A DNA stretch of 64,000 nucleotides, from assembly GCA_910589415.1 (NCBI GenBank), contig OU342637.1:43306162-43370161 (forward strand), written 5' to 3'. The DNA comes from Malachius bipustulatus (Eukaryota; Arthropoda; Insecta; Coleoptera; Melyridae). The first letter of the stretch is position 1, and each line of letters begins with the position of its first letter. The position numbers and the translations under genes are program-made. This document shows positions 2,221-62,459 of this stretch, one piece after another. The notes under the pieces were generated by a model that saw nothing but the letters and a program-made list of their open reading frames with translations, searched no databases and was not told the DNA's origin.

Positions 2221-4370
2221 ATTAGATTAGATTAGATTAGATTAGAGTTTATTTGCATATATGACACTAAAGTGTCGTGGCATCGTCAATACAATATAAT
2301 GTAACAGGTACATGAAAAACAAACACAGTAAAAATACATAAACACAGCAAAAGCAAACAACAACAAATGTAAAGATGTAAAAAGGCAAACAGTCAAATGT
2401 ATACTCATATACCTAACACAGAAAAGTTCAAAAATGCAAACAATAAATCAAAGTTCAATACGTGATCCGTCAAAATCATCTGCATCGTAGAGCGGTGTCT
2501 GAAGTAAGTAAGCTTTAACCGTGACTTTAAATTTTTCACTAGCTAGCTGTTTTATGCTTTCCGGAAGTTGGTTATAATATTTAGGACCGTAATAATTCGT
2601 AGCATTTCTACTTGACATTAGACGTACATACTCCACTCTTATAAGATTTGCTCCCTTTGTGTCATGCCTATGTATGTCACTACATAGACTATACAGGGTG
2701 AGACGCGAGAACCTTAGGGCATTTTTATATGGAGAAGTCCTGGGAGTAGAAGTCTAAAAATTTGTGCGTGTATAATTTCGGTTTTGACGAGCTGAACTAA
2801 AATATTCACAACCCCACACCACTTCCGGTTATACCGGAAGTTGCCATATTTTTCTTTTTTTAAATGGTACACCCTGTATATTATTACATTCTCAGATTGC
2901 CTGAAAAACAGCAATAAAAATGATGTTTACAGTTCAAAATTGTACCGAGTGGTTTATGAGTTATAAACAAATGAAAATAGCAATTTTCCATTTTCAAAGC
3001 AGCTTAGCTTGAAAACGGGTCAAGATATCGGAAAACGGCGTACATGTCCCTATCCTAACTTTTTGTATACTACGCTGGAGTACCTACAAAAAAAAAATAT
3101 TTTTTATTAATATTTTTTTGAAAATCGCTTATTTTTCATTACTTTGTATACAAATTTCATCAGCACCATAGGATACTACGTGAAAAGTTAAGATAGGGAC
3201 ATGTAAGCCGTTTTCCGATATCTTGACCCGTTTTCGACCTAAGCTGCTTTGAAAATGGAAAATTGCAATTTTCATTTGTTTATAACTCATAAACCACTCG
3301 GTACAATTTTGAACTGTAAACCCCACTTTTATTGCATTTTTTCAGACAATCTGAAAATATAATAATATACAGGCTGTCCCATTTAAAATAAGAAAGTTGA
3401 TGGCAACTTCCGGTATAACCGGAAATGGTGAGGGGTTGTGAATATTTTAGTTCAGCTCGTCAAAACCGAAATTATACACGTACAAATTTTTAGACTTCTA
3501 TTCCCAGGACTTCTCCATATAAAAATGCCCTAAGGTTCTCGCGCCTCACCCTGTATATGTTATAGTTCCTGTGTACATACACCAAACAGGAATACACATA
3601 CAAGGAAGGCAAAGTGAACAGCTTTAGTTGCTTGAATTTATGTCTAACATCTTCTCTATATCCCAGACCAGTCATCACGCGAAGAACCTTTCTTTGAAGC
3701 CCGAAAATACGCTTTGCCGATGGTGAGTGACCCCAGCTCAACAGACCATAGAACACCTGTGAAACGAATAACGCATGGTATGCTGTCAATAAAGCATTTA
3801 GTGGTGCAAAATTACTTACTTCCGCATTACATAAATGGTTTTCGATAACTTTTTTTGCAAGGTACTCGGTGTGTTTCTCCCAACTAAGTTTAGGATCCAG
3901 GATCACTCAAATCCTTGACAGAAATTTGACAAGCTGAGCATTCTCATGATCAACCATTGGTCTGTGGGTGAAAATCTCATCGACTGTTTTATTTTTATTA
4001 ATACTCAGATAGTTCTTACTGAACCATTGAGTTGCAACTCTCATGGCTTCTACCATTTCACCCTCAAGCACTCCCAGCTGTGGTGACCTCGATAACAACG
4101 TTGTGTCATCAGCATACAACACACAATCACCCACATTCAGTCCGCTTTTAAGGTCATTTATGTATAATGTAAAGAGAGTTGGTCCAAGTACCGATCCCTG
4201 GGGAACCCCATGTGTTACCGGTGCAAAAGATGATGTTTTCTCATTATATTGTGTATATTGTCGTCTGTCCGTGAGATATGAATAAATAAGGTTACACGCC
4301 GATACATCAAACTCAAGATGTTTTAATTTTTTGATAAGGCAGGCATGAGATATACAATCAAATTCTTTCT
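2221..4370 (-). pseudogene. Jockey/CR1-like non-LTR ORF2, 3' part with (GATTA)n tail
   Basis: Minus-strand reading gives the RT palm with VPQGSVLGPTLFTLYINDL and the catalytic YADDTT, then the thumb region (DPKLSWEKHTEYL) and, beyond the foldback, the C-terminal stretch YYNQLPESIK typical of Jockey/CR1-clade ORF2. A stop lies between the palm and thumb segments near 3907. The 5' end is lost at about 4370, inside the palm. The 3' end is a run of GATTA/ATTAG units at 2221-2246. Foldback FB2 (2692-3555) splits the thumb from the C terminus. It is a dead, 5'-truncated copy. Confidence 0.8.
2692..3555. repeat. Foldback element FB2 inside non-LTR ORF2
   Basis: Arms at 2692-3060 and 3130-3555 are inverted repeats starting TACAGGGTGAG and ending CACCCTGTA. 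It interrupts the minus-strand RT reading frame, so it is younger than that element. The centre contains short poly(A)/poly(T) tracts. No coding capacity is seen. Confidence 0.8.
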
Positions 4371-15984: not shown

Positions 15985-18678
15985 TCAAACTGACGTAAGC
16001 GGTTCAATTCCCGGAATTGTTCTAGATGGGATTAAGCGGGTCAGGTCATTTGAACACTTTCCATAAAAGTATCTGCAAAACAGACTCAGGTCGGTTACTC
16101 TTCTTCGATGTTGAGTGTCTGAATTTTTTGTCAAATCTGGGTCCCCAATCAAGTGTATGGCTCTTTTCTCGATTGAGTCAAGTAGTCTCAGCGTATGTTT
16201 AGAAGCTGAGCTCCAAATATGTGAGCAGTACTCCAAGGATGGTCGGATTTGAGCCTTGTATAAGAGGAGAAGCTGTTGTGGTGTATAAAATTTCTTCGTG
16301 CGGAAGAGTGTTCCAAGTTTTTGAGAAGCACTCTTCGCTATACCTGCAACATGATCATGCCAAGACATGTTCGCTCCAAGGCTCACTCCAAGTAAACGAA
16401 TAGATGACGCTGGGGTAAGAGAGTGTCCCGCCATCATCATATCTGGCTCCAAAACGTTGGTCTTTTTGGAGAAGATGACTGCTTGGGTTTTTCCAGCATT
16501 AAATTGGACTTGGTTTCTATCGCCCCAAGTTAGAATGTCTTGCAAGTCATTGTTAAGTATGGCAACTTCTTGCTCCCTGCGAGTCTGTGCGTCGATCGCA
16601 GATGTTCGCGCATCTAACGTATAAGAAGATATGAGGGTACTGTCGTCGGCAAAACTGTATATTGGATTTTTGGTTGTTTCAAGCAAGTTGTTTATAAATA
16701 TTAGAAAGAGAGTCGGAGATAAAATGGATCCCTGAAGCACGCCGGCATTGATGGAAAAGGTCTCAGAAAGAACTTCATCGACTGCCACCTGCAATGAACG
16801 ATCTCCGAGATAACTCGCAATCCACAAGCAGAATTTCTCGGGCATGCCATAGGCCTGCAGTGTTGCCAACAGTCCATCATGCCAGATACAGTCGAAAGCT
16901 CTAGAAATATCAAGCGCAACCCCTCGAGACTCCCCATGGTGCTCGATTGCGCTGTTCCACAGCTCGGTGACGTAAGTGAGGAGGTCACCAGTTGACCTCT
17001 GTTTGCGGAATCCGTATTGGCGGTCGCTGATTATATTAGCTCCTTCCAAGTATTTTAAAAGATGTTGGTTAATAGTTTTCTCCATAATCTTGGATATAAC
17101 TGAAAGCAGTGCCACTGGTCGATAGTTACTTGGTATAGTCTTTTTACCTTTCTTGGGAATAGGTTGGATCCGTGCACATTTCCAGCAAGAAGGAAATATT
17201 CCCTTTTTATACGACAAGTTGAAAAGTCGGCAGAAAACATATGACAGCTCAGTGGCGCATTTTCTTGGTACGATAACAGGTACTTCATCGGGCCCAGAAG
17301 CTTTGTTTGGGTCTAAGGCTAACATAATGCTCTTTATGACACGCTGTCGGAAAACAATGTCTGACATTTTGGACTCCACGGAAGGGATTATTGGCGGAGT
17401 TCTTCCATGAAAGTCGACGGAAGAGTATGAAAAAAAGACTCCCGCCAACAAGTTCGCCTTCTCAGTAGCCGTGGATGCGATAGTCCCATCTGTCCGTGTA
17501 AGTGGTGGAATCGTGGATCTGGTTAAGTTCTGGCTGACTGCCTTAGTTACAGACCAAAAAGATTTCGAACCGTTAGGACAGGAGAGAAGTTTGTTCCTAA
17601 TTCTTTGGTTGTGAGTTTCCTTGGTTTGATCTATTATTTCTTTGCATCTGTTTCGAGCAAGGATGAATTCTGATGGTTTATGCCGTCGGGGCTCTCTCGC
17701 CATTGGCGAAAAGCCAGTTGTTTGGAGGCGACAGCTTCCTTGTATCTTTTGTTGAACCAAGGTTTGCTGTTTGAGGGCTGTTTTTTTGAAAAGGGAATGT
17801 AGGCTTCCATGCCTGTTAGGATGACTTGAGCAACTTCCCTAGCGCAAACAGATGGGTTATTAGAGCCGAAACAAACACTCCTCCATGGAAAATCTCGATA
17901 ATATTCCCTGAGTTCTTCCCATTTAGCAGATCTATAGTGCCAGACTACACGAGGTTTACTTGCTTCTTTAACACTAGTAATTGGTAGGACACAAGATGTT
18001 GAGACTAGTTTATGGTCTGAGGAACCTAGTGGGGCTTTCACCGTAATAGTATACATTTGAGGGTTCGTGGTCAAAAACAGATCCAACAAGCTAGCGAATT
18101 CTCCCTCGCGATCGGGAATGCGTGTTGGTTCATCAACGAGCTGGGTAAAACCACAGCTGATCGCAAACGATTCCGCTTCACGGCCTTCTTCATCAGTGAA
18201 GTTTGAGTATTTAAGCCAGTTGATGTTATGTACATTAAAATCACCCAAGATGGATATCTCAGCTTTGGGGTAGTTTATCTGTATGAATTCAACAGTTTTT
18301 GTGAGGAACAAAAAAAGTGTCCTATACTGTGTATCGCTGGGTGGTCGGTATAAACAACAGATGAATCTCGTTGTTTGTCGGTCTGTTATCCTAAGCCACA
18401 CGACGTCGAAGTCATGGGGCTCAAAGACTTCCTCGCGCTGGCAGGAGAGGTCACTTCTGACAAAAATGCCAATTCCGAAGTTATGTCTAAATCGGGAATG
18501 AAAGTCATATCCTGAATAAAGATAATTAACTGTGCTTGATGGCGCTTGGACTTTTGTTTCGCACAGTGCTAGAATGTGAGGTTTATTTGTCTGAAGATGT
18601 TGATGTACTGAATTGATATTCGTATTTAAACCTCTAATATTACAACAGTCGACTTTAAATTATTCCATTCTGGAGGTG
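15985..18678 (-). pseudogene. Jockey-like non-LTR ORF2: endonuclease and reverse transcriptase
   Basis: This is the best-preserved retrotransposon ORF in the window. The N-terminal APE-type endonuclease (18657-17900) shows CCNIRGLN, ILALCETK, GDFNVHNINW and the catalytic SDHKLVS. RT (about 17400-16000) shows LDPNKASGPDEVPV, NYRPVALLSVISKIMEK, QYGFRKQRST, LDISRAFDCIWHDGL, GSILSPTLFLIFINNL and FADDST, with Phe for the usual Tyr of YADD. A stop (TAA at 18660-18662) follows ATG-GAA at the probable start, and a frameshift lies near 17680. The copy diverges from its relatives just after RLIPSRTIPG at about 16015, so the C terminus is lost. Confidence 0.9.
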
Positions 18679-19220: not shown

Positions 19221-19233
19221 AAATACAATTTTG
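19221..19233. repeat. Target-site duplication of the ribozyme element (left)
   Basis: AAATACAATTTTG here is repeated exactly at 20624-20636, on either side of the palindromic ribozyme-bearing insertion. Confidence 0.8.
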
Positions 19234-19440
19234 CATATTAAAAAGCCGAAGTATACTCAAAAGTCACAACAAACCGTAGGTAGGTAGGTCTTAATGAGTA
19301 TAAAGCAAATCAATAGCCTGTCGTATTGGAGTCGGGTTTTAACCCATCTTCCTGACAGTTGTCAAGTCTGGAGTGCCCGAAAACCCAAATAAAGAGTTTC
19401 TCGACTCAGGCAGCAACACACATCCAACCAGACCACCAAA

Positions 19441-19485
19441 AGCACGGACGGCCGTTTCGGTCTCATTAGACCTCGTCAGCGTACT
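19441..19485 (-). ncRNA. Type I hammerhead ribozyme, family A copy 1
   Basis: Minus strand: stem I AGTACG/CGTGCT (one G-U pair), core CTGACGA, stem II GGTCT/AGACC with a 4-base loop AATG, GAA, stem III AC/GT with loop GGCC, cleavage after GTC. All core positions are intact; position 7 is free to vary. Expected self-cleavage at the 3' edge of GTC. Confidence 0.85.
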
Positions 19486-19891
19486 ATATTGGAGAGTCCG
19501 GAAGGATATGAATCGCTGCACGAATCGAAAACCCTATATGGAATCTCATTCAGCCGGTTACCAGTGGCCTCGAGACAGAGCGACATCTATCAAGAGAAAC
19601 AACAGGCTCCCAGCCAAAACAAAACTCCAGTGTGTATTATGGGTTGCAGACACTCCAGGGGCTACGAGACTGACATCAGAAATGCATATTAAAAAGCCGA
19701 AGTATACTCAAAAGTCACAACAAACCGTAGGTAGGTAGGTCTTAATGAGTATAAAGCAAATCAATAGCCTGTCGTATTGGAGTCGGGTTTTAACCCATCG
19801 TCCTGACAGTTGTCAAGTCTGGAGTGCCCGAAAACCCAAATAAAGAGTTTCTCGACTCAGGCAGCAACACACATCCAACCAGACCACCAAA

Positions 19892-19932
19892 AGCACGGAC
19901 GGCCGTTTCGGTCTCATTAGACCTCGTCAGCG
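19892..19932 (-). ncRNA. Hammerhead ribozyme, family A copy 2, stem I broken
   Basis: The core, stem II and stem III are identical to copy 1, but the sequence that should complete stem I is cut off at the palindrome centre after three bases (CGT, then TCC). Probably inactive alone. Confidence 0.7.
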
Positions 19933-19954
19933 TTCCTCGTCAACTCTCCAATAT

Positions 19955-19999
19955 AGTACGCTGACGAGGTCTAATGAGACCGAAACGGCCGTCCGTGCT
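19955..19999 (+). ncRNA. Type I hammerhead ribozyme, family A copy 3
   Basis: Plus strand, identical motif set to copy 1 (AGTACG, CTGACGA, GGTCT/AGACC, GAAAC, GGCC loop, GTC, CGTGCT). It lies just right of the palindrome centre and faces away from copy 2. Confidence 0.85.
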
Positions 20000-20405
20000 T
20001 TTGGTGGTCTGGTTGGATGTGTGTTGCTGCCTGAGTCGAGAAACTCTTTATTTGGGTTTTCGGGCACTCCAGACTTGACAACTGTCAGGACGATGGGTTA
20101 AAACCCGACTCCAATACGACAGGCTATTGATTTGCTTTATACTCATTAAGACCTACCTACCTACGGTTTGTTGTGACTTTTGAGTATACTTCGGCTTTTT
20201 AATATGCATTTCTGATGTCAGTCTCGTAGCCCCTGGAGTGTCTGCAACCCATAATACACACTGGAGTTTTGTTTTGGCTGGGAGCCTGTTGTTTCTCTTG
20301 ATAGATGTCGCTCTGTCTCGAGGCCACTGGTAACCGGCTGAATGAGATTCCATATAGGGTTTTCGATTCGTGCAGCGATTCATATCCTTCCGGACTCTCC
20401 AATAT

Positions 20406-20450
20406 AGTACGCTGACGAGGTCTAATGAGACCGAAACGGCCGTCCGTGCT
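20406..20450 (+). ncRNA. Type I hammerhead ribozyme, family A copy 4
   Basis: Plus strand, identical to copy 3 across 45 nt; spacing between the two is 451 bp, one unit length. Confidence 0.85.
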
Positions 20451-20639
20451 TTTGGTGGTCTGGTTGGATGTGTGTTGCTGCCTGAGTCGAGAAACTCTTT
20501 ATTTGGGTTTTCGGGCACTCCAGACTTGACAACTGTCAGGACGATGGGTTAAAACCCGACTCCAAAACGACAGGCTATTGATTTGCTTTATACTCATTAA
20601 GACCTACCTACCTACGGTTTGTTAAATACAATTTTGACT

Positions 20640-23010: not shown

Positions 23011-23338
23011 GGTAATGTCTTTTACATTGCAAAATTATGGATTTCAGGCCTGTTTTTCCATCGATAGTAAACTGCAGGTTAAGCTGAAACTGAAAGTAAA
23101 CGTCAAAATTAAGTTGGAAGGCAAGTTGGCAAGACTCAACGATTAACTAATGCATAAAAGACTGAAATGCATGTCAATGAGTACCCATAAAGTACATAAA
23201 GTGAAATTACTAGCCTGTTAGATGGGGTCGGAGAATTCCTCCATCGCCCTAACAGTTGTCATGATGGCAGTGCCCGAAACTTCAACTAGAGAGCTTGCTT
23301 CCGCATCCAACAGCAGAGCCTTCCAGATTACCAGAACA

Positions 23339-23382
23339 AGCACAGACACGTGTTTCGTTCTACTGGAACTCATCAGTGTGCT
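23339..23382 (-). ncRNA. Type I hammerhead ribozyme, family B
   Basis: Minus strand: stem I AGCACA/TGTGCT (six perfect pairs), core CTGATGA, stem II GTTC/GAAC with loop CAGTA, GAA, stem III AC/GT with loop ACGT, cleavage after GTC. All conserved core bases are present, so activity is expected. Confidence 0.9.
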
Positions 23383-23799
23383 GCATCTGGAGTATCCGGA
23401 GGATGCTGTCGGATGAATGGAAGTTGGCCTTTCTTAAGCCAAGAATTAACACGGATCTCCGTGTGGTGTAAATAGAGCGACATCTAGCGGTCAGTCTAAA
23501 GAACTAACCGTGAGTTCACTATAAGTTAATTGCAGTTCCAGACACTACCAAAGCCAGTCTATTGACAATCATGAAGAAGAGGGAAGGCAAGTTGGCAAGT
23601 ATACTCAACGATTAATGCATAAAAGAGTGAAATGCAGGTCAATGAGTATAAAGCACATAAAGTGCAATTACTAGCCTGTTAGTTGGGGTCGGAGAATTCC
23701 TCCATCGCCCTAACAGTTGTCATGATGGCAGTGCCCGAAACTCCAACTAGAGAGCTTGCTTCCGCATCCAACAGCAGAGCCTTTCAGAGTACCAGAACA

Positions 23800-23843
23800 A
23801 GCACAGACACGTGTTTCATTCTACTGGAACTCATCGGTGTGCT
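23800..23843 (-). ncRNA. Hammerhead ribozyme, family B, core mutated
   Basis: Same layout as the copy 461 bp away, but the core reads CCGATGA instead of CTGATGA and one stem II pair is now G-U (GAAT). The changed base is one of the conserved core positions, so activity is probably lost. Confidence 0.8.
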
Positions 23844-23942
23844 GCATCTGGAGTATCCGGAGGATGCTGTCGGATGAATGGAAGTTGGCATCTCTTAAGC
23901 CAAGAATTAACACGGATCTCCGTGTGGTGTAAAATTAAGTTG

Positions 23943-34159: not shown

Positions 34160-34375
34160 ACTAAATATTAGTTCCAAGATTTTGCATAGTATGTGTAGTG
34201 TGTTCCTGACTGATGTGACATGCTGATGAGTCCAAAAAGGACGAAACGGTACCGGAAATGTCTTCAGTTTCACCTCACATACTGTGCGAAAGTTTTCTAA
34301 TGCGTTCTGTAAAAGGAACCTATAGTGCCAATTGAATTAGAACCTAAATCTCAACAAATTTCTCAAATATTTATT
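34160..34375 (+). repeat. Dispersed repeat containing a hammerhead-like motif
   Basis: Its right part (34266-34372: GCGAAAGTTTTCTAATGCG, TTAGAACCTAAATCTCAAC) recurs in diverged form at 36470-36562. The left part holds the ribozyme-like motif. Confidence 0.55.
34217..34262 (+). ncRNA. Degenerate type I hammerhead ribozyme
   Basis: Stem I GACATG faces AATGTC (five of six pairs), core CTGATGA, stem II GTCC/GGAC with loop AAAAA, GAA, stem III ACGG/CCGG. The U16.1 equivalent is G rather than T, next to the expected cleavage site, so cleavage is unlikely. Core and stem II are otherwise exact. Confidence 0.65.
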
Positions 34376-36466: not shown

Positions 36467-36564
36467 TGATTGCTGTACGAAAATTTTCTAATTTGTTCTC
36501 TAAAGAATCTTTAGTGGCAAATTTAAATTAGAACCTAAATCCCAATAAAATTCATCAAATATTA
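36467..36564 (+). repeat. Diverged copy of the 34.2-kb repeat (right part)
   Basis: Similar to 34266-34372 across about 95 bp. It lacks the hammerhead part and ends where FB5 begins. Confidence 0.5.
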
Positions 36565-37445
36565 TACAGGCTGTCCCAGCTTATTCGAAGCGGTCTCTGT
36601 AGGCCAAACGATGGACTTTTTCGAAAAACTTTTTGAAAATTCAAGTACAGAATCACAATGGCCATAATTTAAAATTATTTTGGAGTATAAAGAGTGTCCC
36701 ATATGACACTGACATATCAAAGTTATGTTTTTTAAAATGGAAAGCTCCTATGTTATTGCATTTTTAGATTGTCTGAGAAGAGAAAATAAGATTGGCTTTT
36801 ACAGTTGGTGTTTAAATTCAGAAGTTTTTAAGTTATAAACAAGTGAAAATCGTCATTTTTCGAGTTCAAGGCCCTGTACAACGAAAACGGTTCAAGATAG
36901 AGAAAAACGGCTTACATGTCCCTATTTTAACTTTTCATGTACTATTCTATGATGTAGATGAAATGTTTATACAGGGTGATAAAAAATTTGAAAAAATCTG
37001 AGATTTCTCCACTCGTCGCCAAATAAAAAAATCAAAGAAAGTACAAATGTTTCTATACCATAGGATAGTACATAAAAAGTTAAAATAGGGACATGTAAGC
37101 CGTTTTTCTCTATCTTGAACCGTTTTCGTTGTACAGGGCCTTGAACTCGAAAAATGACGATTTTCACTTGTTTATAACTCAAAAACTTCTAAATTTAAAC
37201 ACCAACTGTAAAAGCCAATCTCATTTTCTCTTCTCAGACAATCTAAAAATGCAATAACATAGGAGCTTTCCATTTTAAAAAACATAACTTTGATATGTCA
37301 GTGTCATATGGGACACTCTTTATACTCCAAAATAATTTTAAATTATGGCCATTGTGATTCTGTACTTGAATTTTCAAAAAGTTTTTCGAAAAAGTCCATC
37401 GTTTGGCCTACAGAGACCGCTGCGAATAAGCTGGGACACCCTGTA
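36565..37445. repeat. Foldback element FB5
   Basis: Inverted arms of about 410 bp from TACAGGCTGTCCCAGCTTAT to its mirror ending CACCCTGTA, flanked by TA. The arms share the block CTTACATGTCCCTATTTTAAC with the FB2 and FB7 arms (AAACGG...ACATGTCCCTATC), so these foldbacks are related internally too. Confidence 0.8.
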
Positions 37446-37985
37446 TAATCAAATAAGTGGTTCAATAAAAATAATTATAAATCTAATTATAAAAGTAAAG
37501 TAGAACATACACATAAGAGTTTTATTCTAGAATTAAGGATCAGATCAGGCTGGCTAAATGAACCACTTGGTTAAGTTAGTCAACACATTCATGAATAAAA
37601 GATACCTACCTACTTGTTGACAAGCGATGCTTTCACTCCTAGTAAAAAAATAAATTTATTAAAAAAAAAAATTAATTTATTATTAAATTATTAAATTTAT
37701 TATTAAATTTAATAATTTAAATTTAATATTAACAACAGACAACAGTTTTCAAACAAATCTCGATGCACCACGGCAAAACAGCCTGGAATAACTTATGACT
37801 TCAGTTGAAGCCAGCAGTGAATCCACATGCTAGCTAGCAGCACACACGTCAATCACATAAACACCAACGCAGTATATTTTTGGATCTCTAATCGTATTTT
37901 GTCGGTTTTCAGCATTTTTCCCATAAACTGTTGTTAAAACCTAAAAAAACTTCAGGAAGCGAAAATGCTGGGGACCAAGTTCTAC
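37446..37985. other. AT-rich, no gene recognised
   Basis: Includes a poly-A/T segment of TTAAATTTATTAT units (37650-37730). Nothing else supported. Confidence 0.45.
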
Positions 37986-38900: not shown

Positions 38901-40490
38901 ATGGCCTCGGACGTGAATGTTGTGAAAACAATTATTGCTCCAAGTGTTTTTGAGTGTTGTAAGGATAAACCTGAGGCGAGGATCTGCGTGTGTGTTCTAT
39001 GAGGATCACTTCTTCATATAAGTTGTGCAGAGAGAAGAAAATTTCAATCAATAGGAGGTATTTTTGGATATTGTCAGTGTAATACAGATATGATCTCAAA
39101 ATTGAGCTCGTGTGGCACTGTTCCAACTAACGGTGGCAAACAGGTCATCAATGAACTACTTAAAGTAAGTCTCAATGTTATGATGATCTAGAGGTGCGAT
39201 TGAGAGAAAAGAGTTCTACAAAGAAGCGAATATAAACTTATGTAAACTTATAAAGGAAAAAGCGAAAGATGAGAGTAACATTGCTAAGATGGTAGACGAA
39301 CTAAAGTCAATTAGACACGGAAATACTAGTTTGAAAAATGAAATAAAACTAGCAAAATTAAAGAAGGATGGTGGAAAATGTGAAGATAAGGATAAAGAGA
39401 TACATGCATTGAATGAGAGAATTGAAGAATTGACTCAGCTAACTGCTGAAATGAAAAGTAAAAACAAAGTACTATAATATCCACGATCAAAATTGTTGGC
39501 AGTAACTGACATTACTAAAAAAGTCATTTCGGAGAAGCGGCAAGCAGAAAATTTTCCTCGAACCAGATATTTCAGCTTGCCGCTTCTCCGAAATGCCTTT
39601 TTTAGTAACGTCAGTTACTGCCAACAATTTTGAACAAGGATTATAGAAGATTATGTCACGTTTACTTAAGAATACCAAAGCATATGCAAAGGCCATGAGA
39701 GATGAAAATACACTTGAAATTAGAAGATATAATATAATATAATATAAAGTTAATAAATAACTCAAAAAAAGGTACCTGAAATAGTGGTTCGATGTATGTA
39801 CAGAAAAAAGTGAGATGACTGCAGTGATGAAAAATAAAACAAGCTGACTAGTACTAAAGTTAAAATTAATATTTTGAAAAGGATAAGTGATGATAAGGTA
39901 GTGATTAAGTGTGAGAATAAAGACAATGTAAATTATGTTGATCAACAGTTGGCACAGATACCTTAAACTTAAAACAAAGTACTAAAACTAAAACCGAAGT
40001 TAAAAAATTAAAAAATCCACTTATTAAAGTTGTTGGAATTGAAATTAGGTACTGAAGAAATTGACTAGGTACACTGAAATGGAAAATGATCTTGTACATA
40101 AAAACAATCTTGAAGAGGGTACTTTAGGAGTAAACCATATTTATATAGTTTATACAGGCCTAAATATTTTTAAATATTTATCATATTGTATAGGCCTAAA
40201 AATGGGACAATAACTAATTAACTAGTGCCATTCTTGAAGTGAGTAGAAACACCTATGCAGAGATAATGTCCAGGTGTTTTGTCTATTATGGTTGGCAGAG
40301 TTGCAGAGTATTCGACGAGTTCAATATGTCATAGGTGTTGTAGATATTTTCACAGTAGTAAAAAATGTAATCATGATGTCAAGTGTTCCAAGTGTGGAGG
40401 GAACCATGAACTTGAAAGGTGTAGAAATAATGAGGCGAAATGTGTTTTATGTGAGGAAGCTAATGCCAAATTTGGACTATCAAACCAAGG
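38901..40490 (+). pseudogene. Non-LTR ORF1 with PHD-like finger, coiled coil and zinc knuckles
   Basis: Starts MASDVNVVKTIIAPSV. A Cys/His finger (CCKDKPEARICVCVLC, then after a frameshift LLHISCAERR and GYCQCN) resembles the PHD-type domain of some CR1/Jockey ORF1 proteins. A charged coiled coil follows at 39289-39477 (LNERIEELTQL). At 40330-40460 there are two CCHC-like knuckles (CHRCCRYFHSSKKC and CSKCGGNHELERC). Stops, a frameshift and a hairpin MITE interrupt it. At about 40487 the frame passes directly into the middle of ORF2, indicating an internal deletion. Confidence 0.65.
39487..39633. mobile_element. Near-perfect hairpin MITE, ~147 bp
   Basis: CAAAATTGTTGGCAGTAACTGAC and its reverse complement close a long stem that continues through GCATTTCGGAGAAGCGGCAAGC-like sequence; the loop is about 30 bases. 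It interrupts the non-LTR ORF1. Confidence 0.8.
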
Positions 40491-41878
40491 AAAGCCACAA
40501 CCAAAGAATTAGGAACAAACTTCTCTCCTGCCCTAACGGTTCGAAATCTTTTTGGTCTGTAACTAAGGCAGTCAACCAGAACTTCACCAGATCCACGATT
40601 CCGCCACTTACACGGACAGATGGGACTATCGCATCCACGGCTACTGAGAAGGCGAACTTGTTGGCGGGAGTCTTTTCTTCATACTCTTCCGTCGACTTTC
40701 ATGGAAGAACCCCGCCAATAATCCCTTCCGTGGAGCCCAAAATGTCAGACATTGTTTTCCGACAGCGTGTCATAAAGAGCATTATGTTAGCCTTGGACCC
40801 AAACAAAGCTTCTGGGCCCGATGACGTACCTGTTATCGTACTAAAAAAATGCGCCACTGAGCTGTCATCTGTTTTCTGCCGACTTTTCAACTTGTCGTAT
40901 AAAAAGGGAATATTTCCTTCTTGCTGGAAATGTGCACGGATCCAACCTATTCCCAAGAAAGGCAAAAAGACTATACCAAGTAACTATCGACCAGTGGCAC
41001 TGCTTTCGGTAATATCCAAGATTATGGAGAAAGCTATTAACCAACATCTTTTAAAATACTTGGAAGGAGCTAATATAATCAGCGACCGCCAATACGGATT
41101 CCGCAAACAGAGGTCAACTGGTGACCTCCTCATTACGTCACGGAGCTGTGGACCAGCGCAATCGAGCACCATGGGGAGTCTCGAGGGGTTGCGCTTGATA
41201 TTTCTAGAGCTTTCGACCGTGTTTGGCATGATGGACTGTTGGCAAAACTGCAGGCCTATGGCATGCCCGAGAAATTCTGTTTGTGGCTTGCGAGTTATCT
41301 CGGAGATCGTTCATTGCAGGTGGCAGTCGATGGAGTTCTTTCTGAGACCTTTTCCATCAATGCCGGTGTACCTCAGGGATCCATTTTATCTCCGACTCTC
41401 TTTCTAATATTTATAAACGACTTGCTTGAAACAACAAAAAATCCGAGATACAGTTTTGCCGACGACAGTACCCTCATATCTTCTTATACGTTAGATGCGC
41501 GAACATCTGCCATCGACGCACAGACTCGCAGGGAGCAAGAAGTTGCCATACTTAACAATGACTTGCAAAACATTCTAACTTGGGGCGATAGAAACCAAGT
41601 CCAATTTAATGCTGGAAAAATCCAAGCAGCCATCTTCTCCAAAATGGCCAACGTTTTGGAGCCAGATATGATGATGGCGGGACACTCTCTTACCCCAGCG
41701 TCATCTCTTCGTTTACTTGGAGTGAGCCTCGGAGCGAACATGTCTTGGCATGATCATGTTGCAGGTCTGGCGAAGAGTGCTTCTCAAAAACTTGGGACAC
41801 TCTTCCGCACGAAGAAATTTTATACACCACAACAGCTTCTTCTCTTATACAAGGCTCAAATCCGACCATCCTTGGAGT
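40491..41878 (+). pseudogene. Jockey-like ORF2 (RT) before the insertion
   Basis: Same family as 15985-18678. Endonuclease is missing. RT motifs: LDPNKASGPDDVPV, NYRPVALLSVISKIMEK, QYGFRKQRST, then a frameshift at about 41120-41240, VPQGSILSPTLFLIFINDLL and FADDST. Unlike the 16-kb copy, VPQGS is intact (the other reads VLQGS). The frame is cut at the codons for RPSLE by the 2.57-kb insertion and resumes at 44452. Confidence 0.85.
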
Positions 41879-54358: not shown

Positions 54359-55299
54359 TGTTATGTCAGTTAGTATATTGTTATATTCCCACCGCAACCC
54401 TGTCAAACGCGCCCTCAAACACGAAGGTCGCATGGAATAGTAATAGCCCGTATCCGATTTCGTAGGTAGGACTTGGCAATTATTGTGCTTTTAGAAATGT
54501 CATGCACGATGTTACTGTTATGTTGTTGTACTTGTGAAGCTAATGAAATACAACGTGATTCTTTTAAGGCGCCCATTAGAATATTTTCCACTTCTAATTG
54601 ATCTAGAGATCTAAAACTTGTAGCCTAGGTAACATAAACAATTACGAGTCAAAATGAAATATAAGCAAGATGGCGGCACATTTAAAAATGGCGAAAGCAA
54701 TGGCCATCGTTGTTTCTTTAATTGGAACACCCCATATATTATTGCATTTTCAGATTGTCTGAGAAAATGTAATAACAATGGTGCTTTAGTTGTATTTTAA
54801 ATTGAGTAGGCTATGAGTTATAAACAAGTGAAAATCGTGATTTTCCAACTTCAAAGACATTTACCACGAAAACGGCTCAAGATATCAGAAAACGGTTTAC
54901 ATGTCCCTATCTTAACTTTTCATCTGGTATCCTACTGTATAGTTGAAATGTTTATACAGGGTGATGAAAAATCAGTTAATTTTCACCATCCTGTATAAAC
55001 ATTTCAACTCCATAATAGGATACCTCTTTAAAAGTTAAGATAGGGACATGTAATCCGTTTTCCGATATCTTGAGCCGTTTTGTTGGAAATGGCTTTCGCC
55101 ATTTTTAAATGTGCCGCCATCTTGGTAATATTTCATTTCGACTCGTTATTATGTATGTTGCCTAAATTCCAAATTTCAGATTCCTAGATCAACTAGAAGT
55201 CGTACTTTTTCTAATGGGCGTTTTAAAAGAATCATCCTGTATATTAAAGTAACAAGTTATGTGTAGTTATTATAATTAATCGAACCCGATAACGAAACA
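54359..55299 (+). repeat. 3' LTR of element B, carrying a foldback
   Basis: The LTR proper is 54359-54550 plus 55240-55299. It has ~70 bp (about 54387-54459, including CACCGCAACCCTGTCAAACG) that the 5' LTR lacks. Confidence 0.85.
54551..55239. repeat. Foldback element FB7, TA-flanked, empty site known
   Basis: 689 bp between TA and TA. The 5' LTR of the same element has the uninterrupted target GAAATATATTAAAG. Arms of about 200 bp include GCGCCCATTAGAA and AAGATGGCGGCAC; the centre contains a CAGGGTGATGAAAAATCAG core. Left terminus is decayed (CAACGTGATTC versus CAGGATGATTC mirrored at right). Confidence 0.85.
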
Positions 55300-55655: not shown

Positions 55656-55835
55656 CCTTTTTCCTCCTGCATGATGACTTCCTTAAGAATATAATTCCTA
55701 TAATTATCAGACCTATAAATAATAATTAGTGGGTATTAAATCATCTTACATTTTAGCAACTCAGATTAAAAGTAAAAACTGCCATAATATTACATGTTTT
55801 TTTCAAAGTTTGTTTTTTCAACTTTTTTTTTTCAG

Positions 55836-56464
55836 CTAAACCAACAATGAAACTGCCATTCAATACTCCGATTCTTAAATCACTTAATCAACAGTTTTTA
55901 CGCCAATATTCAACCTCTGAACTTCCAAATTTGTCTCACATAGATGCAGAAGGACATGCCCGTATGGTTAATGTGTCTTATAAACCAATTACCCATCGTA
56001 CAGCAATCGCCAAAGCACATGTCAATATTCCAGATACCCTCGTCAGGGCAATCAAAGAAAACTCACTGAAAAAAGGCGACGTACTCAGTGTCTCCCAGAT
56101 TGCTGGAATCGCCGCAGCAAAGAAAACTTCTGAACTACTTCCACTGTGCCATAACATTTCCCTTTCTAGTATTGTGGTGAATGCACGACTGGATGAGGCA
56201 AATAAAAAAGTAGAACTGGTAGCGACAGTTGAGTGTGATGGAAAAACAGGTGTGGAAATGGAGGCGCTGACTGCAGTAAGTGTTGCTGCTTTAAATGTGT
56301 ATGACATGTGCAAAGCAGTTAGCAGGGAAGTGGTCATTACAGATATATGCCTTGTGAACAAGACTGGAGGTAGTAAGAGTAGTAAAGACAATAAGTTGAA
56401 GATTAGGCCATTAGATACAACACCAATTGAGCCAAATTATGCTGTACAAGTTGGGATTGTATGA
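55836..56464 (+). CDS. MOCS1: MOCS1 terminal exon, MoaC (cyclic pyranopterin monophosphate synthase) domain
   Basis: The MoaC domain converts the MoaA product into cyclic pyranopterin monophosphate in molybdenum-cofactor synthesis. A pyrimidine-rich TTTTTTTTTTCAG at 55823-55835 is a good splice acceptor. The frame is open through it (codons for K-P-T precede the first ATG at 55847), so this is a last exon and not necessarily a gene start. Counting from that Met (205 residues): LSHID at 29-33, KGDVLSVSQIAGIAAAKKTS around 76-94, LCH at 100-102, DGKTGVEMEAL at 131-141, and VYDMCKAVS with the expected active-site Asp153 and Lys156. No break or odd residue is seen. The MoaA part is not in the window; the upstream intron is at least filled by the 45-55.7 kb nest if the gene extends that way. 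Confidence 0.85.
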
Positions 56465-58333: not shown

Positions 58334-58430
58334 AACTCGAGATGCACCACTCGGAGATCCGTGTTAATTCTTGCCTTAAGAGGCCCCAACTTCCGTTCAT
58401 CCGACAGCATCCTCCAGACACTCCAGATGC

Positions 58431-58474
58431 AGCACACTGACGAGTTCCAGTAGAACGAAACACGTGTCTGTGCT
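58431..58474 (+). ncRNA. Type I hammerhead ribozyme, family B
   Basis: Stem I AGCACA/TGTGCT, core CTGACGA (free position 7 is C), stem II GTTC/GAAC with loop CAGTA, GAA, stem III AC/GT with loop ACGT, cleavage after GTC. Fully intact. Confidence 0.9.
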
Positions 58475-58887
58475 TGATTTGGTACTCTGGAAAGCTCTGC
58501 TGTTGGATATTGGAAGCTCCTTCTCGATTGGAGTTTCGGGCACTGCCAGCATGACAACTGTTATGGGCGATGGAGAAATTCTCCGAACCCACCTAACAGG
58601 CTAGTAATTGCACTCTATGTGCTTTATACTCATTGACCTACAATTCACTATTTTATGAATTAATCGTTGAGTATACTTGCCTCCTGTCTTTTTCATTATT
58701 CGATTGTCATCGACCGGCTTTGGTAGTGTCTGAAACTGCAATTAACTTAGAGTGAACTCACGGTTAGTTCTTTGAACTGACCGCTAGATGTCGCTCTATT
58801 TACACCACACGGAGATCCGTGTTAATTCTTGCCTTAAGGGCCCCAACTTCCGTTCATCCGACAGCATCCTCCAGACACTCCAGATGC

Positions 58888-58931
58888 AGCACACTGATGA
58901 GTTCCAGTAGAACGAAACAAGTGTTTGTGCT
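58888..58931 (+). ncRNA. Type I hammerhead ribozyme, family B, GUU cleavage site
   Basis: Core CTGATGA and all stems intact; loop III is AAGT and the cleavage triplet is GTT instead of GTC. GUU fits the NUH rule but usually cleaves more slowly. Confidence 0.85.
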
Positions 58932-59345
58932 TGATTTGGTACTCTGGAAGACTCTGTTGTTGAATATTGGAAGCTCCTTCTCGATTGGAGTTATGGGCAC
59001 TGCCAACATGACAACTGTTATGGACGATGGAGGAATTCTCCGAACCCACCTAACAGGCTAGTAATTGCACTCTATATGCTTTATACTCATTGACCTACAA
59101 TTCACTATTTTATGAATTAATCGTTGAGTATACTTGCCTTCTGTTTTTTTTATTATTCGATTGTCATCGACCGGCGTTGATAGTGTCTGAAACTGCAATT
59201 AACTTAGAGTGTACTCACGGTTAGTTCTTTGAACTGACCGCTAGATGTCGCTCTATTTACACCACACGGAGATCCGTGTTAATTCTTGCCTTAAGAGGGC
59301 CCAACTTCCGTTCATCCGACAGCATCCTCCAGACACTCCAGATGC

Positions 59346-59386
59346 AGCACACGGATGAGTTCCAGTAGAACGAAACACGTGTCTGG
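59346..59386 (+). ncRNA. Hammerhead ribozyme, family B, decayed
   Basis: Core reads CGGATGA and the 3' strand of stem I has lost two bases (TGGCTT for TGTGCT). Probably inactive. Confidence 0.75.
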
Positions 59387-59808
59387 CTTGATTTGGTACT
59401 CTGGAAGGCTCTGCTGTTGGATATTGGAAGCTCCTTCTCGATTGGAGTTTCGGGCACTGCCAGCATGACAACTGTTATGGGCGATGGAGGAATTCTTATT
59501 CTTATTATTATTATTCACTTTCTCCACGCACATGCAGAAGAATAGACAAATGACAAGACCTAAACAGTGACATTCCTTAACACACCCCCTCAATGCATAT
59601 TTTGTCAAGACCAAAATATACATTATATTTCAATAACTCGTCCAATCAGATATTGCACAGTGGTCACACTGCGTTGCCTTGTCGAGCACTTTTTTAAAGT
59701 AAAATTAATCATTTCTGCCGTCGTTATCAACCGTCTCATACCTACTCATCCTTCATTACACTGTTGTGCTTTGATCGAGCAGTAGCGGCAAGAATTGTTC
59801 CGACCAAA

Positions 59809-61129: not shown

Positions 61130-61440
61130 TTAGCCATGGTACACCTACCCAACGATGAATAAATAAAAACGCAATTGTAGGTCAATGGGTACAACATTTA
61201 TTGAAATAGTCTGCCTACCGGTTTCGGGCAAGGTCACCCATCATCAGGACAACTGAAAGTATAAGTTGAGTAGGATGGTAAATTTTTTCAAACACTTTAG
61301 TGTGTATCGTTAAGATGAAAAATTTACCATCCTCTTAAACTTACTTTCAGCTGTCCTGATGATGGTTGACCTTGCCGGTAGACAGACTATTTTAATAAAT
61401 TTTATACCTAGTGACCTACAATAATTGCATTTTTATTTAT
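61130..61440. repeat. Inverted repeat carrying hammerhead-like motifs
   Basis: Left and right halves mirror each other around 61285 (AAATTTACCATCCT both ways; CCTGATGATGG near each outer side; ACCTACAAT at the edges). The left half has a complete hammerhead-like motif on the minus strand; the right half has a deleted one. Confidence 0.65.
61211..61252 (-). ncRNA. Hammerhead-like motif
   Basis: Minus strand: stem I TTGTC/GGCAG (with wobbles), core CTGATGA, stem II TGGG/CCCG-type with loop TGACCTTG, GAA, stem III ACCGGT with almost no loop, cleavage triplet GTA. Such minimal stem III forms are known mainly as dimers. The mirrored copy at 61352-61385 has lost the GAAAC segment. Confidence 0.55.
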
Positions 61441-62459
61441 TCAATTTGTTGACTCTTTGAATAATTTAGTCCGTGAAATCTTCAAATTGTTTATAATAAA
61501 AATTCGAATTATGTATTAACATGAAAAAACACCACAATTATTATTATACAGGGTGTTAAAAAATGACGGACAAACTCTTCAGTACATTGTAGGGGACACT
61601 CAGTACAGTACGGGAAAAATAATTTAAAAAATTCTGGTCTTCAATTTGGTGAGATAAAAAATGCCAAAGTTAACATTTTACTATCTTTGTTTTTCAGTAT
61701 TTGCAAAAAAATAAATGATTTTACAGATATAAAAAGGGTAAGTACTTAAATCATTATCAATTAAAAAAATTGCTTAAGATGTATTACTGGCTTGGAAAAT
61801 TTAATAAGATTTTTTTTTCTTTTCTAAGATGCTGAAAAAAAAGCATTTGGCAACAACGGTTTTGATACCTTGACTACATGCATTGTTAGAAATTAAAAAC
61901 AGAAAATAAAAAAGAAATTGGGAAATTTAAATATCAGTAAGTTGATCAATGACACACACCCAAACATGTTGATATATCTCGTAAACGAAGGCCTAAATCA
62001 AAATGATATAAGAGTGAGGATAGTAAAACAAATAAACCATACATCAGAGCCATAGGCGTACGCAGAAAAATGTTGGGGGGCCAAGGTCTGCCATAAACCC
62101 CCTTTCGTGCGCTCGCGCTTGGATTTTCTTTGATTTTTTTCCCTAAAAATGTGTATCTGCATAAGAAAGAAGGCTATGCAAATTTTCAAATGAGTATCTT
62201 AAAAAATAACGGAGTTAGGTATTGATAAAAAACTTTTTTTTTTAAAGTTTGACACCCTGTATCTTGAAAATGGGACGCCTATGTGAAAAATGGCATAAGG
62301 AAAGTGTCATTATTTTTGGCCCAACAATCTGTGGCCAAGAGCTTGACCTCCTTTTTTGTAACACCCTGTATAGGTAAAACTGTCAACCTATTAATTATTA
62401 TTCCTGAAACTTAAAATAGCAAAAGAACAATGGGGTAAGTAATGAAAAATATATTTTAG

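Follow-up and report, generated by a model that had tools for sequence, protein, structure and literature searches.

The window, i.e. the whole 64-kb stretch of DNA that we analysed (37% GC), contains a 1390-bp insert at 19234-20623, here called F1, which lies in an AT-rich target site and is enclosed by one 13-bp target-site duplication (TSD). Within the insert two arms derived from the same 451-nt unit stand head-to-head, a 700-nt arm on the minus strand followed by a 681-nt arm on the plus strand, and the longest stop-to-stop frame is 131 aa per arm. Two related retrozyme arrays (F2a and F2b) and a putative Penelope-like pair are found further along the window. The features are as follows.

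19221-19233, left TSD, AAATACAATTTTG, exact repeat of 20624-20636 (14 nt counting an ambiguous T)
19234-19933, left arm of F1, sense on the minus strand, 700 nt, 1.55 units of 451 nt
19234-19267, extra "tail" of the left arm, its outermost 34 nt
19252-19302, minus strand, stem-loop TATACTCA-35 nt-TGAGTATA, outer left copy, complete
19441-19485, minus strand, type I hammerhead core, outer left, 25.9 bits to RF00163 (below gathering)
19703-19753, minus strand, stem-loop, inner left copy
19893-19936, minus strand, type I hammerhead core at the join, stem I altered (GAACG for GUACG), 21.8 bits to RF00163
19934-19942, filler TCCTCGTCA at the join, 9 bp
19943-20623, right arm of F1, sense on the plus strand, 681 nt, 1.51 units of 451 nt
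19955-19999, plus strand, type I hammerhead core, inner right, 25.9 bits to RF00163 (below gathering)
20138-20188, plus strand, stem-loop, inner right copy
20406-20450, plus strand, type I hammerhead core, outer right, 25.9 bits to RF00163 (below gathering)
20589-20623, plus strand, stem-loop, outer right copy, cut off by the arm end with 27 of 35 loop bases remaining
20624-20636, right TSD, AAATACAATTTTG, exact repeat of 19221-19233
23117-23930, minus strand, F2a, related retrozyme, direct tandem with a 12-bp TSD
58345-59496, plus strand, F2b, related retrozyme, 2.5 direct units of 457 nt
61156-61443, putative Penelope-like (pLTR-like) head-to-head pair with a similar stem-loop

Other parts of the window are occupied by repeats and by one gene-like frame. 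A LINE with endonuclease and reverse transcriptase frames lies on the minus strand at 15985-18659, and a copy of about 1.4 kb with 96.6% identity to it is present at 40479-41878. Palindromic repeats at 2690-3557, 36561-37449 and 54711-55096 are related to one another and are perhaps fold-back or MITE-like. The open frame at 55757-56464 is MoaC/MOCS1-like and 50-59% identical to named beetle proteins; among the 120 matches listed, seven carry an organism name (five beetles, one mosquito and one grasshopper), with the best beetle identities in Cryptolaemus (59%) and Exocentrus (55%). To judge from these names the window looks like insect DNA, perhaps from a beetle.

The original prediction described F1 as an inverted dimer with arms of 1.5 units, and the sequence bears this out: the arms hold 1.55 and 1.51 units, the 451-nt direct repeat is present within each of them, and 664 of 666 nt match between the mirrored stretches 19268-19933 and 19958-20623. 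The mirror does not take in the whole insert: one arm runs 34 nt further outward, and the inner ends differ. It is the left (minus) arm that reaches further, so that the two outer ends are offset by 34 nt within the unit. Two mismatches occur in the mirrored stretch (19325/20566 and 19349/20542), one private to each outer unit, and so small a number over 666 mirrored positions suggests a young insertion. The 13-bp TSD was correctly predicted at 19221-19233 and 20624-20636. The longest word common to both flanks is 14 nt if an ambiguous T is counted, and when 50- and 60-nt stretches of the window were drawn at random, they had a word of at least 13 nt in common in 6 of 3000 draws. Integration as a single event, also predicted, is well supported by one TSD around the whole and none seen at the join; a nested double insertion was rejected because the join has no visible TSD.

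At the join itself, the homology of the left arm ends at 19933 and that of the right arm resumes at 19943, with the 9-bp filler TCCTCGTCA between them, and the inverted join, which had been placed at 19935, is not a simple axis. Eight of the nine filler bases repeat 19922-19929. Since only 128 of 20000 random 9-mers from the window match the surroundings of the join as well as the filler does, the filler was probably templated, and either arm could have served as the template. The inner ends of the two arms are unlike each other, and both lie at most 18 nt upstream of a hammerhead CTGA core. The Rfam family MIR6136 gives a score of 55 bits across the join at 19898-19993 (gathering score 99). 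We rejected a miRNA at this position: the matches to MIR6136, mir-1890 and mir-9449 all fall below gathering and reflect the hairpin. The consensus of MIR6136, a plant family, has GUUUCGGUC/GACCGAAAC in common with the hammerhead, so that inverted copies of hammerheads might be the origin of some hairpins annotated as miRNAs.

F1 carries four type I hammerhead cores, two per strand, all of them within the mirrored stretch or at its edge. The expectation of four hammerheads holds to the extent that all four cores are matched by the Rfam family Hammerhead_1 (RF00163), with scores below its gathering score of 34 and, in the 1.7-kb search in which they were scored, E-values of 0.0014 for the 25.9-bit cores and 0.032 for the 21.8-bit core; the minus-strand copy at the join is damaged, with its altered stem I. 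A search of the whole window at the gathering score lists none of the four F1 cores, and lists the F2b hammerhead at 58431 with 34.5 bits. Inspection by eye shows stem III as an 8-nt palindrome (ACGGCCGU in F1, ACACGUGU in most F2 copies) that could form a short hairpin or pair two molecules. A further hammerhead-like core was found by pattern on the plus strand at 34223-34247, unmatched at Rfam gathering. In the best predicted fold of an isolated F1 hammerhead piece stem II is kept and the core is paired differently, giving a structure other than the catalytic one; the piece is no stabler than shuffles (z -0.62), and the predicted fold counts against ribozyme activity. Transcripts from either strand had been said to contain ribozymes and to fold into a long duplex. 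The duplex is right by sequence, and transcripts could form about 666 bp of it with the hammerheads inside; the activity of the four ribozymes is putative, since all of them are caught up in the mirror or border on it, the join copy is altered and the isolated piece folds otherwise. If the duplex forms around the hammerheads, cleavage of RNA from the F1 locus may be suppressed and small RNAs may be produced.

The outer ends of F1 fall at a stem-loop. In a 541-nt piece of F1, a perfect 8-bp stem enclosing a loop of 28-42 nt occurs once, as TATACTCA/TGAGTATA with an AC-rich 35-nt loop (GACCTACCTACCTAC). The right arm breaks off within this loop, and the left arm ends 15 nt past the ACTT that contains the last stem base, 34 nt beyond the right-arm end. 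Intact F2 units have the stem TATACTCA/TGAGTATA too, with a loop that is likewise 35 nt long. The window holds 97 perfect 8-bp stems with loops of this kind, so that they are not rare, and in isolation the F1 stem-loop is mildly stabler than shuffles (z -1.69, against z -2.59 to -4.36 for F2). At the priming ends the overlap is 1-2 nt, which is little informative.

The related arrays allow the ends to be compared among copies. F2 units measure about 457-466 nt, and most have the 16-nt hairpin sequence ACACGGAGATCCGTGT just inside their start. F2a spans from its 5' start through two hammerheads up to the stem-loop, and it ends 15 nt beyond the CTT of its last unit, a unit with a small deletion at that place. 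By alignment this end coincides, within about 1 nt, with the end of the F1 left arm past the stem-loop; given a 451-nt unit, we estimate the chance of such agreement at around 1% or less. The 5' starts of F2a and F2b are nearly equal (within a few nt). The last unit of F2b halts upstream of the stem-loop and provides no 3' end matching F1, and we found no repeat of 6 or more in the F2b flanks; taken by themselves, its ends neither help nor hurt the interpretation in terms of Penelope-like elements (PLEs) that we develop below.

The pair at 61156-61443 is older than F1, its arms being identical at 111 of 135 columns, and it may be two pLTRs of a Penelope-like element, paired and lacking the element's gene. 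A pattern scan places a hammerhead-like core in its minus copy, and part of the core is lost from its plus copy; Rfam returned no hammerhead match at 61156-61443, and the PLE label, putative as it is, comes from the architecture and this core. The stem-loop of the pair, TACCCATTGACCTACAATT...TCGTTGGGTA, agrees with that of F2b, TACTCATTGACCTACAATT...TCGTTGAGTA, at 40 of 50 columns, and with that of F2a at 38 of 50. When 6392 80-nt tiles were scored against this stretch, the F2 arrays scored best outside its own locus (48 and 38), with values of at most 28 elsewhere. As to the stem, one pair is changed on both sides, from U-A to C-G; a second covarying pair comes from a decayed copy, and 16 of 500 shuffles reach as high as two pairs. 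The arm homology of the 61156-61443 pair breaks off inside the loop. F1 resembles this pair by position and architecture and not by sequence, and the link between the two runs through F2.

We consider F1 to be, on balance, probably a young insertion of a non-autonomous retrozyme, produced in a single event by a Penelope-like enzyme that primed on both target strands. Such an enzyme would cut the two strands of an AT-rich site 13 nt apart, and each 3' DNA end would prime reverse transcription of sense retrozyme RNA longer than one unit, beginning at the stem-loop, in one case within the loop and in the other about 15 nt beyond the stem. The cDNAs would each extend for about 1.5 units and halt a short way upstream of a hammerhead core, their ends would be joined with a short templated filler, and fill-in of the overhangs would yield the TSD. 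Two separate priming events at a staggered cut would thus account for the two outer ends of F1 together with its TSD. Because each cDNA needed at least 1.5 continuous units, the template would be either a multimer with uncut hammerheads or a circle; the near-equal 5' starts of the F2 arrays hint at a linear template, and a structural stop could also produce them.

Several of these steps have been reported for PLEs. A purified Penelope-like protein is reported to cut and extend both target strands and to begin reverse transcription within an AC-rich stem-loop that lies at a distance from the RNA 3' end (PMC11167929). The same work attributes an optional tail of 30-40 bp to the distance between two start sites, and finds that hammerhead mutants have no effect on insertion in vitro, unprocessed RNA being the main substrate. 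In PMC3846280, head-to-head is called the inverted arrangement seen most often among Penelope elements of Adineta vaga, and the copies described there have TSDs of 8-10 bp and, on one arm, a tail of 31 bp. F1 is like these elements in its head-to-head arms, its TSD, its stem-loop ends and its AT-rich target, as PMC3846280 and PMC11167929 describe them; its one-sided tail of 34 nt compares with 31 or 30-40 bp reported there, and its TSD of 13 bp with the 8-10 bp of A. vaga Penelope. Unlike PLEs, the F1 insert has no reverse transcriptase or endonuclease gene, and its unit is 451 nt. F1 as an autonomous PLE was rejected: it does not show the combination of reverse transcriptase and GIY-YIG endonuclease, the longest frame being 131 aa per arm. 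A PLE enzyme was not found among the 10 translated frames of the window that we scanned against Pfam, which counts against the PLE reading, as does the fact that the F1 stem-loop is unlike the PLE-like one in sequence. To these we add the basis of the PLE label at 61156-61443 (architecture, and a core that Rfam does not match), the commonness of 8-bp stems, the mild stability of the F1 stem-loop, the thin covariation and the F2b ends.

The original prediction implied strand switching or snap-back during reverse transcription, in which one cDNA or antisense RNA would have folded back and copied itself, with the hairpin inserted afterwards. The palindromic joins of A. vaga Penelope copies are read in this way by the authors of PMC3846280, and the filler, which can pair with bases of the other arm, could have arisen when copying of a folded-back strand first began and was aborted. 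The 34-nt outer offset, the unlike inner ends and the filler nevertheless fit such an origin less well, and it is possible in one direction: had the right arm come first, its copy could not hold the 34 extra nt of the left arm, and had the left arm come first, its copy must by chance have halted inside the loop of the stem-loop. The private substitutions are not common to both outer units, although later mutation could explain this, and the filler requires a second slip. We therefore regard self-priming as unlikely. Lower still we place twin priming by a LINE enzyme on retrozyme RNA, as for 5'-inverted L1 copies. It gives an inverted segment within one TSD (PMC2912911), and a LINE with endonuclease and reverse transcriptase frames adjoins the insert. 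Twin-primed LINE-1 copies, as described there, share with F1 the inverted segment in one TSD, an irregular inner join and the use of both target strands, which are thought to prime; F1 is unlike them in that it lacks a poly-A end and in that both its arms begin at one stem-loop and cover the same sequence, for which either the template must have been multimeric or circular or two RNA molecules must have been used. Neither outer end of F1 has a poly-A or microsatellite tail, and the ends lie at a stem-loop common to the PLE-like copy and not at an RNA 3' end.

Mirror repeats are known to provoke errors in reads and assemblies, and an artefact would have to be considered here, together with a later rearrangement of an ordinary direct tandem insertion; we hold either to be very improbable. 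The mirror ends before the unlike flanks, which makes an artefact unlikely (a missed adapter in a read would have mirrored the flanks too), the TSD is intact, and each outer unit has a private substitution. As for a rearrangement, turning the left half back brings AATATG against ACTCTCC, which are not adjacent in the unit, and does not restore a continuous tandem. A fold-back DNA transposon that carries hammerheads by chance would have the long inverted arms, and the further palindromic repeats of the window, in its favour, but is scarcely credible when the outermost ends are not inverted repeats of each other (the 34-nt offset), when each arm is a partial direct tandem, and when the relatives F2a and F2b are direct tandems.

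The component parts of F1 are of known kinds. Metazoan non-LTR retrozymes (PMC7229834) resemble F1 in that their repeat unit measures a few hundred bp and that coding capacity is not evident; their type I hammerhead has candidate counterparts in the four F1 cores, which score below Rfam gathering, and in the F2b copy, which scores above it. Their repeats of about 150-450 bp stand in tandem, compared with a 451-nt unit in F1 with 1.5 direct units per arm and inverted arms; the GC content of F1 (46.6%) is below the 50% stated for them and above the 45% of the figure legend; and the TSD of F1, at 13 bp, agrees with their TSDs of more than 4 bp. F1 is unlike them, as they appear there, in being head-to-head and not a direct tandem, and in ending at a stem-loop common to the PLE-like copy. 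The word "inverted" does not occur in PMC7229834. A literature search that missed most subscription papers returned no report of a head-to-head retrozyme, and, with the same coverage, none of a stem-loop common to retrozymes and a PLE. The original prediction called F1 an unusual product, which is true for retrozymes as described in the literature and less so for PLEs, the head-to-head form being frequent in A. vaga Penelope (PMC3846280). A pattern for the F1 core gave no match in viral_contigs, a zero that means little for an animal element, and the core common to F1 and F2 gave none in genome_contigs or viral_contigs, which are bacterial, archaeal and viral, so that these zeros also mean little. 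One contig matched a pattern of hammerhead plus stem-loop; we rejected it as a chance match, with phage-like frames by eye and no hammerhead core.

Published work has already put PLEs forward as the helpers of animal retrozymes, naming them as candidates, strong or likely, and not as demonstrated helpers. A wider and more doubtful possibility, which we offer tentatively, is that animal retrozymes are parasites of PLEs and bear a copy of the stem-loop at which the helper starts reverse transcription. Both target strands would then prime on uncut multi-unit RNA, not necessarily circular, and the abundant circular RNAs would arise on the side, transposition proceeding through a different intermediate. 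The F2 arrays give a hint in this direction, with 5' starts within a few nt of each other and F2a continuing through two hammerheads to the stem-loop. What the window adds is that retrozyme ends are tied to a stem-loop common to a PLE-like copy, and this bears on which enzyme moves animal retrozymes and from what RNA. F1 would be the natural product expected if both target strands prime, as reported in vitro for one PLE protein, and the question turns into one of counting copy ends genome-wide.
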